Positions 13,631 to 37,757 of a stretch of DNA of 64,000 nucleotides are shown in pieces. The stretch is from contig NZ_CP021138.1 of the NCBI RefSeq assembly GCF_002162035.1, positions 2,356,001-2,420,000 of the forward strand. Reading direction: 5' to 3'. This DNA is from Sulfuriferula sp. AH1 (GTDB lineage Bacteria > Pseudomonadota > Gammaproteobacteria > Burkholderiales > Sulfuriferulaceae). A program made the translations under genes and the position numbers. How positions within the stretch are numbered: position 1 is the stretch's first letter; each line of letters opens with the position of its first letter. Below the pieces are notes generated by a model. That model was not told the origin of the DNA. It did no database searches and saw only the letters and a list, made by a program, of their open reading frames with translations.

Positions 13631-14689
13631 ATGGACGAATTCGACACTCTGGGCGCAGGTCTGGCGCGTTCCGGCATCAGCCGTCGTTCCTTTCTCAAAT
13701 TCTGCACGGCCATGGCCTCGCTGATGGCGCTGCCCCCCAGCGCCGCTTATGCGATGGCCGATGCGCTTAAACGTGCGCAGCGCCAGTCGGTGATCTGGCT
13801 GTCGTTTCAGGAATGTACCGGCTGCGTCGAATCGCTGACCCGCTCCTTCGATCCGACGCTGGAACAGATGATATTCGAGATGATCTCGCTGGATTATCAG
13901 CACACCCTGCAAGCCGCCTCGGGCACAGCGGCAGAATCGGCGCGCGAACAGACGATGAAGTCATCCTGGGGCAAATACGTGCTCATCGTCGATGGCTCCA
14001 TTCCGACCAGGGACGGCGGCGTGTATTCCACGGTGGCGGGCATTTCCAACCACGACATGCTGGTCGAAACGGCCAAAGGCGCAGCGGCCATCGTCGCTGT
14101 GGGTACCTGTTCTGCATACGGCGGCATTCCCCATGCCAACCCCAATCCCACCGGCGCAGTGTCGGTATCAGACATCATCAAGGACAAGCCAATCATGAAT
14201 GTGCCGGGCTGTCCGCCCATCCCGTCAGTTATTGCCGGCGTGCTGGCGTATTTCGTCACCTACGGCAAACTGCCAGAACTGGATCATCTCAACCGACCCA
14301 AAGTGTTCTTTGCCGACACCATCCACGACCGCTGCTACCGGCGGCCATTCTACGATCAGGGCAAGTTCGCCAAGACCTTTGACGACGAAGGCGCGCGCAA
14401 TGGCTGGTGCCTGTATGAACTCGGCTGCAAGGGCCCGACCACTTACAATGCCTGCGCCACGATAAAGTGGAACGGCGGCGTCAGCTTCCCGATCGAGTCC
14501 GGCCATGGCTGCCTGGGCTGCTCCGAACCAAATTTCTGGGACAAAGGCAGCTTCTACAAGCCTTTACCGATGCCGCTGGCAACCAATAACCGGGTCATCG
14601 CTGCCGCCGCAATCGGCGGTATCGCAGCAGGCGCGGCAGCCGCCGTGATATCGCGCAAACACCAGGCCGACATCAGCAAGGAGAATTAG
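13631..14689 (+). CDS. hynS: [NiFe] hydrogenase small subunit, Isp-type (group 1e)
   Basis: 352 residues. A Tat signal (SRRSFLKF, Arg 18-19) is followed by a hydrophobic stretch and cleavage near residue 41. Proximal cluster ligands are Cys 62, 65, 160 and 194. Gly 64 and Gly 165 occupy the two places where oxygen-tolerant enzymes have extra cysteines, so this is a standard proximal cluster. Distal cluster: His 232, Cys 235, 260, 266. Medial 3Fe-4S: Cys 275, 294, 297. A C-terminal hydrophobic helix (VIAAAAIGGIAAGAAAAV) would anchor it to the periplasmic face. GGGGAG precedes the ATG. The order hynS-isp1-isp2-hynL is that of Thiocapsa/Allochromatium Hyn enzymes. Confidence 0.95.
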   Translation: MDEFDTLGAGLARSGISRRSFLKFCTAMASLMALPPSAAYAMADALKRAQRQSVIWLSFQECTGCVESLTRSFDPTLEQMIFEMISLDYQHTLQAASGTAAESAREQTMKSSWGKYVLIVDGSIPTRDGGVYSTVAGISNHDMLVETAKGAAAIVAVGTCSAYGGIPHANPNPTGAVSVSDIIKDKPIMNVPGCPPIPSVIAGVLAYFVTYGKLPELDHLNRPKVFFADTIHDRCYRRPFYDQGKFAKTFDDEGARNGWCLYELGCKGPTTYNACATIKWNGGVSFPIESGHGCLGCSEPNFWDKGSFYKPLPMPLATNNRVIAAAAIGGIAAGAAAAVISRKHQADISKEN

Positions 14690-14955
14690 AGCCGCTTTCA
14701 ATAGGCTTCATACCTCGCGCCTGTACTCTGTGGAGTGCAGTACAAGGCGCGAGTTGCGCAGTTTGGCATTCCAAACAAGCGACGAGTAACGCAGTAATGC
14801 GCTCCACAGAGTACAGGCCCTCCGGGTTGAGTCAGACAAGCGCGTCTGCAGCGTTGTCCGGCTTGTGAATGGAACTGCCATTCACTGCGCCGCACGCCTT
14901 GCATCCATCGCTAGCCTGACTCAACGCGAGGTATGAAACCTATTGAAAGAGGCTC
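14689..14955. repeat. 267-bp nested palindromic element between hynS and isp1
   Basis: Outer arms 14689-14719 and 14925-14955 are 31-nt inverted repeats with two mismatches. Inside are two side-by-side palindromes of about 100 nt, each with concentric stems. Branch A has a perfect 16-bp stem 14720-14735/14802-14817 and an apical 6-bp stem GTTTGG/CCAAAC at 14761-14776. Branch B has a perfect 10-bp stem 14826-14835/14916-14925 and an apical 8-bp stem GTGAATGG/CCATTCAC at 14865-14885. As RNA this folds as a Y. The left arm begins at the last base of the hynS stop and the right arm ends 4 bp before the isp1 ATG. It could be a palindromic mobile element (MITE/REPIN-like) or an intercistronic RNA structure. 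Confidence 0.85.
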
Positions 14956-14959
14956 TTAC

Positions 14960-15613
14960 ATGGACTTGCTGCAATTTGCCCGTGGCCCGGCACTGACCTG
15001 GGCCTTTGCGATTTTTGCTTTTGGCATGGCCTGGCGCCTGCTCGGCATCCTGTTGCTCAAACGCCGCCCTGATTACTCGGAACCGCGTCATGCCAGCAGC
15101 TGGCCGGGTGCTGTCAAACTGATCATCACCCGTTCCTGGCCGCGCCGCGAGTTCAGGCAACGTACCATTTTCGGTCAGGCCGTGGGCTATATTTTCCATA
15201 TCGGGCTGGCAATCGTGGTGTTCGGTTTCGCGCCCCACATCCTGTTTTTCAAGGGACTCACCGGGCTGGATTGGCCCGGCCTGCCCAATGCCGTCGTTTA
15301 CCTGAGCGGCGCTATCACCATCGCCGCGCTCATCGTCGTGCTCGGGCGGCGCCTCAGTCATCCGGTGCTGCGGCTACTGTCCAATTTCGACGACTATTTC
15401 AGCTGGCTGGTCACCTTCACCCCGGTCGCTACCGGCATGCTGGCGGTGGCCCATCTGGGGGCACGCTACGAGACGCTGCTGGCTATCCATATCCTGTCGG
15501 TCGCTGTGTTACTGATCTGGTTTCCTTTCGGCAAGCTCATGCATGCAGCGCTGGTCTTCGTGTCGCGCGGCAGCACCGGCGCCTTATTTGAACGCAAGGG
15601 AGCATCGATATGA
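14960..15613 (+). CDS. isp1: Isp1, cytochrome b-type hydrogenase membrane subunit
   Basis: 217 residues, resembling NarI/DsrM. About five hydrophobic helices are visible (for example WAFAIFAFGMAWRLLGILLL, IFHIGLAIVVFGFAPHILFF, VYLSGAITIAALIVVLG, ETLLAIHILSVAVLLIWF). His residues in FHIG, APHI, IHIL and MHAAL are candidate haem ligands. It should take electrons from HynS and pass them to Isp2 or quinone. The ATG at 14960 has AAAGAGG upstream, inside the palindromic element; an in-frame ATG at 14933 would add nine residues encoded by the element. Coupled to isp2 by ATGA. Confidence 0.9.
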   Translation: MDLLQFARGPALTWAFAIFAFGMAWRLLGILLLKRRPDYSEPRHASSWPGAVKLIITRSWPRREFRQRTIFGQAVGYIFHIGLAIVVFGFAPHILFFKGLTGLDWPGLPNAVVYLSGAITIAALIVVLGRRLSHPVLRLLSNFDDYFSWLVTFTPVATGMLAVAHLGARYETLLAIHILSVAVLLIWFPFGKLMHAALVFVSRGSTGALFERKGASI

Positions 15614-37223: not shown

Positions 37224-37586
37224 TTATTTCGTCGCACGAACGGCTTTTTTCGGGCCTTTACGTGTACGTGCATTGGTACGTGTACGCTGGCCACGCAAAG
37301 GTAAGCCACGACGATGACGCAGACCACGATAGCAACCCATATCCATCAAACGTTTGATGTTCATCGTAACTTCGCGACGCAGATCGCCTTCTACCGTGTG
37401 CTTAGATACGCCTTCACGGAGTTTTTCCATATCCGCGTCAGTCAGATCCTTAATCTTTGTAGTTGTATTTACACCCGCATTCGCACAAATCATGCGTGCC
37501 GTGGTGCGACCGATGCCATAGATAGCGGTTAACGCTATTTCAGCATGTTGGTGGTTCGGGATGTTTACCCCAGCAATACGGGCCAT
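37224..37586 (-). CDS. rpsM: 30S ribosomal protein S13
   Basis: 120 residues: [20 protein letters not shown], then [12 protein letters not shown] and the basic [25 protein letters not shown] tail that contacts the P-site tRNA. First gene of the alpha group. The 57-bp space before it, after rpmJ, is where an S4 operator would lie, but no structure was resolved. Confidence 0.99.
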
Positions 37587-37643
37587 CTACTTACTCCGGA
37601 TTCAAAACGTTAAATTTTAACATGTAACACATAATCAAGACAA

Positions 37644-37757
37644 TTAACCTTGACGTTGCTTGTGACGTGGATCTTCACAGATCACACGAACCACACCCTT
37701 GCGGCGCACAATCTTGCACTTACGGCAGATTTTTTTTACAGACGCCTGTACTCTCAT
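37644..37757 (-). CDS. rpmJ: 50S ribosomal protein L36 (zinc-binding form)
   Basis: A 37-residue protein, [20 protein letters not shown] onward, with the zinc ligands Cys 11, Cys 14, Cys 27 and His 32 of the C+ type. ATG at 37755-37757 is preceded by AGGAG; TAA at 37644-37646. It sits between infA and rpsM as in other proteobacteria. Confidence 0.97.

Follow-up and report, generated by a model that had tools for sequence, protein, structure and literature searches.

The window, the 64,000-nucleotide stretch of Sulfuriferula sp. AH1 DNA analysed here, carries a NiFe hydrogenase locus in which the small-subunit gene hynS is followed by the membrane-subunit gene isp1, the remaining neighbours being genes for the iron–sulphur protein Isp2 and the large subunit (PF00374). 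The features at the hynS–isp1 junction are as follows, in window coordinates and with the basis of each assignment in brackets.

13631–14689, plus strand: hynS, NiFe hydrogenase small subunit, whose TAG stop codon takes the first base of the element (open reading frame; PF14720, PF01058)
14678–14683, plus strand: AAGGAG, which presumably served isp1 as its Shine–Dalgarno (SD) sequence until the insertion left 276 nt between it and the ATG (SD sequences of relatives)
14686–14688, no strand assigned: TTA flanking the element on the left, one copy of a presumed 3-bp target duplication (sequence, comparison of ends)
14689–14955, no strand assigned: the whole element, GAGCC...GGCTC (arms, folds, empty sites, flanking repeats)
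14689–14718, no strand assigned: left terminal inverted repeat, or outer stem (arm pairing)
14726–14813, plus strand: module A hairpin (covariance model R2, 89.0 bits for the same stretch in locus L001; the sequence is in the R2 training set)
14819–14825, plus strand: CC-TCC-GG mini-hairpin at the central junction, inside the 15-nt spacer between A and B (sequence, fold)
14829–14918, minus strand: module B hairpin, inverted relative to A (covariance model R1, 98.9 bits; the sequence is in the R1 training set)
14926–14955, no strand assigned: right terminal inverted repeat, or outer stem, with an in-frame ATG at 14933 (arm pairing, open reading frames)
14956–14958, no strand assigned: TTA flanking the element on the right, the presumed second copy of this 3-bp duplication (sequence, comparison of ends)
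14960–15613, plus strand: isp1, membrane subunit, matching no Pfam family at E 1e-5; the genes of relatives start at this ATG (open reading frame, relatives)

The 267-bp palindrome is real and lies where the first-pass annotation had placed it, running from the last base of the hynS stop codon, the final G of TAG at 14689, to 4 nt before the isp1 ATG at 14960. The outer repeats, which had been described as 31 nt long with two mismatches, were measured as arms of 32 nt (14688–14719 and 14925–14956) that are 94% complementary, again with two mismatches. Two perfect basal stems had also been reported; the second is indeed 10 bp long (14826/14925), while the first has 17 bp (14719/14818) rather than 16, and the apical stems of 6 bp (GTTTGG/CCAAAC) and 8 bp (GTGAATGG/CCATTCAC) are exactly as described. 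The RNA fold that had been foreseen was borne out by prediction: its energy is −158.2 kcal/mol, whereas shuffled sequences averaged −91.9 (z −13.1), and none of 200 shuffles folded as well; the z values were −13.4 for the element as folded DNA and −15.2 for the opposite strand as RNA. The element is non-coding, with no internal open reading frame of 80 amino acids or more; two neighbouring frames enter its right arm, and use of the ATG at 14933 would lengthen isp1 by 9 residues. A simple consensus scan of 14600–15050 found no intrinsic terminator (a stem followed by a T run). No Rfam 15 family matched the element at the gathering score in the window or in 17 other element loci, and a relaxed search gave chance-level matches only, the best (E 0.17) being to an animal microRNA family. 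Elsewhere in the window, at 37554–37658 on the minus strand, an Alpha operon ribosome binding site was detected (RF00140, 38.3 bits, cut-off 38).

The state of the junction in related bacteria was surveyed using the Isp1 protein as query, which gave the best 80 of 210 named loci together with places in 16 of 61 genomes (host included). The closest named relative among those best 80 of 210 was Sulfuriferula multivorans, with 90% identity over Isp1. The host genome itself holds a second isp1-like gene, 58% identical, at G000:C1:1401849-1402517 on the minus strand. Besides the window, the gap survey drew on 38 of the named loci and on 17 from the 61-genome search, 56 sources in all. Both genes were in line in 42 of them, two of these being the present element (the window and L142); the other 14 did not yield the two genes together and are uninformative. 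In all 40 remaining rows, three of which look like loci met twice (L146, L147 and L151), the hynS–isp1 gap was −4 to +5 nt, and the element was present at the junction in none. The eight closest distinct loci (L062–L068 and L145) each had a gap of a single base (AAATARCATGGA). The palindrome is thus an insertion between hynS and isp1. The inferred empty site of this strain (AATTACATGG) is one base shorter than the AAATARCATGG of close relatives, which would mean either the loss of a base or a different ancestral sequence.

These empty sites bear directly on the idea, also raised by the first-pass annotation, that the palindrome is an mRNA structure setting the ratio of small subunit to Isp. 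A conserved cis-acting RNA of the hydrogenase operon, acting in stability, processing or ratio control, would fit the very stable fold and the location between a stop and a start codon, but its absence from 40 of 40 other junctions largely refutes it, and the lack of any Rfam match at the gathering score, or better than E 0.17 on relaxed searching, also speaks against it. As a conserved function, ratio control was not supported.

The first-pass annotation had proposed a search for further copies in the host genome and in relatives, and the outcome was divided. In the host genome there is no second copy, the DNA search having picked up nothing beyond the element itself, its arms and matches of at most 22 bases; the module B model R1 gave two matches in the host genome, and its two matches in the window are the two modules of this element. 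In relatives, DNA matches at E 0.001 were found in 18 of 61 genomes (host included), and dispersed full-length copies are present in other Burkholderiales, those in genomes G051 and G059 at 67–76% identity. Full-length copies among 20 fetched stretches take the same Y fold; L059 and L060 have lost parts. With covariance models, whose E values rest on a short calibration, R1 matched 33 of 61 relatives (E 1e-3), 69 of 274 genomes of the class, taken on the basis of the genus as Gammaproteobacteria in GTDB's sense, and 47 of 299 genomes of the phylum (E 1e-5 for both), counts in which the host belongs to each set, some genomes fall in two sets and strict filters drop weak matches. Up to 65 module matches were present in one genome (G052, R1). 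The family also reaches plasmids: a copy from genome G507 matched four plasmid records (Azotobacter, Halomonas, Pseudomonas aeruginosa) over 86–96% of its length and one further record over 15%, and an incomplete table of coding genes only placed no annotated feature under these matches. The window element itself matched five plasmid records partially, over 13–25% of its length. No phage record and no E. coli record was matched.

Palindromes can be lengthened by templated repair, and it could be that this one arose by chance or was generated locally, without any mobility, a view to which the single copy in the host genome would lend itself. However, the same ends and core recur at many other loci and in plasmids, and these full-length homologous copies refute a local origin, to which we attach a negligible probability.

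The ends of the element were compared by eye in 47 rows, representing 44 distinct copies (L020 and L212 are repeat rows, and the end of L205 was badly called). Outer complementarity was seen in 47 of 47 rows, although weakly in L183 and L220, and the end sequences are of several kinds, at least GAGCCTATTTCAGTAGG, GAGCCTGTCGGACTTAA, GGGCTCGTTAATGAATAA and GGGCGTGTTAAC and others. Exact direct TTA or TAA repeats flank 13 of the 44 distinct copies on both sides, the present element (TTA/TTA) among them, and CTAG lies on both sides of a further nine; since CTAG is palindromic, whether these are direct or inverted repeats is ambiguous. Exactly inverted TAA/TTA flanks were observed for two copies and imperfect flanking repeats for 20. 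The copy at L057 in G059 interrupts purT: once the copy is taken out together with one CTAG, the PurT frame is open (read with 110 nt of upstream flank), whereas the occupied site runs into a stop. Paired ends define size classes of about 264–268 bp (both modules), 161–186 bp (one arm) and 46–53 bp (stem only), with intermediates of 80, 95 and 119 bp among the matches listed. Stem-only hairpins of about 46 nt with a common loop occur at four G004 loci (L330, L331, L333 and L334), and either these are mobile on their own or one deletion has been repeated.

The position of the element at a stop codon was placed in context by a comparison of copies with 545 control sites, TTA, TAA or CTAG, in the same loci. 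The sample omitted L020, L205 and L212 (repeat rows or a bad end) and L017, L039 and L219 (short flanks). An open reading frame of at least 120 codons ended at the boundary in 26 of 41 copies and at 51 of 545 control sites, and in 17 of 41 copies, compared with 6 of 545 control sites, a co-directional frame also started near the far side; some of these frames are spurious, and the control shares them. Copies therefore favour gene stops and intergenic gaps between co-directional genes, and this preference explains why the element fills the hynS–isp1 gap. TAA and TAG lie within the targets, and an insertion there can leave both genes readable. The P. aeruginosa plasmid copy likewise lies between an acyl-CoA dehydrogenase gene and a CoA-transferase gene, and the copy in purT shows that the preference is not exclusive. 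At locus L058 of G059, a copy occupies 971–1244, and 15 nt separate its end from a downstream NiFe hydrogenase large-subunit gene (PF00374, from 1260 onward); the membrane protein before the copy we take, by its look, to resemble HybB. This second encounter with a hydrogenase operon could be counted in favour of a cis-acting RNA, but it is probably a coincidence. The presence of copies at many unrelated genes counts against such an RNA.

Two recurring modules, A of about 89 nt and B of about 90 nt, are alike without being identical, and in the full copies examined the core consists of A and an inverted B around the mini-hairpin, enclosed in a stem with subfamily-specific ends. Both modules were found in 33 of 44 listed loci, on opposite strands in every case and with a spacer of 14–16 nt in 31 of the 33 (the exceptions being L025 with 263 nt and L054 with 32 nt); this spacer usually holds a CC-NNN-GG mini-hairpin. 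The 11 loci with a single module reflect in part the dropping of identical copies and in part a module lost or diverged. The same A–B layout was found again in other genera. In two copies from G051 (L047 and L048) an extra hairpin-rich insert is present in the apical part of module A.

While the stems of the modules vary, the letters of their internal loops stay constant. Covariation was measured for named structures in 32 copies of B and 29 of A, the structures and alignments being derived from the same, related sequences. In module B, 92.5% of cells were paired, 25 of 33 pairs showed double changes and covariation was 0.567, compared with 0.06–0.11 for slid partners; the corresponding values for module A were 85.6%, 30 of 38 pairs and 0.456, compared with 0.07–0.14. 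For neither module did any of 500 shuffles reach any of the five pairing measures. Compensatory changes confined to hynS–isp1 gaps had been put forward as the mark of an RNA element; the changes are strong, but they are spread across dispersed copies at unrelated loci. Mismatches of the G–T type exceeded those of the A–C type in module B (43 to 12; inner stems 27 to 3) and in module A (63 to 33), and this excess points to folding as a single strand, a reading to which the inner stems of A (16 to 15) give no such support.

The upkeep of pairing was followed in 29 copies from four subfamilies, giving 122 non-independent sequence pairs. Copies less than 4% divergent differed by a mean of 3.5 one-sided and 0.5 two-sided changes, and copies more than 16% divergent by 9.3 and 13.9, respectively, where 3.5 two-sided changes would be expected by chance. 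With divergence, one-sided changes rose weakly and levelled off near nine (rank correlation 0.35), while two-sided changes rose strongly (0.90). The orthologous pair L019/L020, which diverged in place, has two one-sided changes and no two-sided change. Comparison of the copies in this way suggests that pairing is maintained in the moving lineage and not after insertion; counter to a strict reading of this kind, some G051 copies only 2–5% apart already carry one to three two-sided changes. Note also that copying within the palindrome by templated repair would yield the same two-sided pattern as selection on the fold. For the cis-acting hydrogenase RNA, the strong family covariation is a point in its favour, but near-identical copies that differ mostly one-sidedly argue for little upkeep after insertion, and in sum we regard that explanation as very improbable.

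A partner that could move the element was sought among DDE transposase families, PF01609 in four genomes and PF05598 in 14, and the elements found have ends of a similar style but different sequence. G059 gave no match to PF01609 or PF05598, despite its near-identical copies, and the IS5-type elements of G000 and G054 have ends other than those of this family. Among the end matches listed there was no autonomous IS with the same ends and no pair at 1–2 kb stood out; inspection by eye of places where one end sequence matched alone also led to no recognisable transposase frame. In its short direct repeats and its CTAG/TTA-type targets the family is reminiscent of IS5-type transposition; as no partner was found, the enzyme is one that we infer. 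With no parental IS among the end matches listed, we call the element MITE-like rather than filing it as a proven MITE.

It could instead be that the element is of the REPIN type and was moved as single-stranded DNA by a RAYT, a Y1 tyrosine transposase that would recognise the folded hairpins rather than double-stranded ends. The G–T excess across the stems as a whole would suit such a route, as would the stem-only hairpins of G004 with their common loop and the inverted doublet of hairpins with compensatory changes, a feature also described for REPINs (PMC3116915). A Y1_Tnp domain was present in 13 of 14 element-bearing genomes and in 5 of 14 named controls, which are not an element-free set. 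However, the sole tested genome with no Y1 match, G052, is the one with the most module matches, and in 30 stretches containing 32 of 33 Y1 places, several of the stretches being cut by contig ends, R1 and R2 each matched just once, at distances of about 2.8 and 1.2 kb, respectively, from the Y1 match. With no modules beside the Y1 genes of these stretches, linkage to a RAYT was not supported. A GTAG (or related) tag beside a 20–40 bp REP hairpin was absent from the listed ends and flanks, and the inner stems of module A lack the mismatch bias. Direct 3-bp repeats, as seen in 13 copies, are to our knowledge not expected of Y1 transposition. Movement by a RAYT is therefore judged unlikely.

The hynS–isp1 palindrome is most likely one copy of a widespread proteobacterial family of Y-shaped palindromes, an inserted, non-coding mobile element and not a conserved control RNA of the hydrogenase. 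The earlier suggestion of an unrecognised MITE/REPIN-like mobile element is supported by 40 of 40 short gaps, dispersed copies, terminal repeats, short target duplications and the purT excision, and we hold it highly probable that, taken as a whole, this is a non-autonomous, MITE-like palindromic element inserted at the hynS stop codon. In such an element, module A and the inverted B around the small central hairpin would allow either DNA strand, or the RNA, to fold into a Y. Movement would occur in trans; the enzyme, probably an IS5-type DDE transposase, would recognise the ends and duplicate either 3 bp (TTA/TAA) or CTAG at the target. Pairing would be upheld in the moving lineage and would decay after insertion, and copies would persist mainly at stop codons and in gaps between co-directional genes. 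The window copy is single and probably immobile. Against this explanation count the missing partner, the missing second host copy, the imperfect or exactly inverted flanks of some copies and the short empty site; the stem-only copies of about 46 nt, if mobile, would be very short for a DDE substrate and would count against it too.

The core modules occur with several different terminal repeats, and a bolder interpretation is that they define a distinct proteobacterial superfamily of mobile DNA, in which a folded core of covarying, non-identical A and B modules on a central junction is either carried along by more than one transposase or, as a folded single strand, forms the structure that is recognised. 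This we put forward tentatively, as possible but rather doubtful. If the family is as proposed, a large palindromic mobile family, undescribed in the literature searched, would be present in about a quarter of the sampled genomes of the class (69/274), and its conserved folded core with differing ends would sit poorly with the usual view of MITEs as leftovers of IS elements. It would also illustrate how an insertion, by landing on a stop codon, can keep the genes on either side readable, and it would offer a giant hairpin separating a Shine–Dalgarno sequence from its start codon, a case open to testing.

That last point concerns the likely effect on isp1. In 11 relatives a purine-rich SD precedes the isp1 ATG, at 7 nt in nine of them and at 6 and 10 nt in the other two. 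The insertion would have moved the SD of isp1 276 nt away from the AUG, and the predicted fold would return a spacing of about 7 nt, as a structure including the A14688–T14956 pair leaves 4 + 3 unpaired bases. In the predicted structure the isp1 ATG is mostly unpaired, SD positions 14681–14683 are unpaired and 14679–14680 paired, a GAGG in the right arm is paired at three of its four bases and the ATG at 14933 is fully paired. According to this model the fold could restore the SD–AUG spacing of isp1, and translation of isp1 may be affected in this particular strain; a simple alternative to a bridged SD is that isp1 expression may be lowered.

Among known classes, bacterial MITEs such as MITEPsy1 of Pseudomonas syringae, which makes a 4-nt duplication (CTAG or YTAA) and is entered under 'IS5?' (PMC3189936), are likewise short, non-coding and bounded by terminal inverted repeats. 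The present element shares with MITEs its size below 500 bp and non-coding nature, terminal inverted repeats, target duplication, dispersed copies and empty sites. MITEs are described as derived from an IS with which they have at least the ends in common (PMC10969869); here, unlike that, it is the core that subfamilies have in common, their ends differ, and the end matches listed revealed no parental IS. REPINs and REP doublets, in which an inverted doublet forms a hairpin with compensatory changes, are similar in being dispersed inverted doublets of hairpin units, but the units here are about 90 nt rather than 20–40, the flanking repeats are direct, the ends bear no GTAG tag and no linkage to a RAYT was found. 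The nearest described layout is that of the CGTC dimers of H. neapolitanus, which lie inside 41-bp palindromes (PMC3733652): these too are heterodimers of palindromic units inside an outer palindrome, with no dedicated transposase known. CGTC-tagged REPs are described there as having stems of 8–9 bp that almost always begin with AT, loops of 4–5 nt and short CCA-like tails (PMC3733652), and by eye against that text modules A and B misfit the stem, loop and tail, though B' contains CGTC. No prior description of this core was found in the main text of the literature searched (as distinct from figures and supplements), nor were four short module strings found among sequences printed in papers. 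For the proposed bridging of isp1, the parallel is with the split ribosome binding sites of T4 genes 38 and 25, where RNA structure brings an SD and an AUG that are 22 and 27 nt apart to a working distance (PMC3014915). Those cases have mutational support and likewise place structure between SD and AUG, whereas at isp1 the bridging is predicted and the intervening structure would be an inserted Y of 270 nt.
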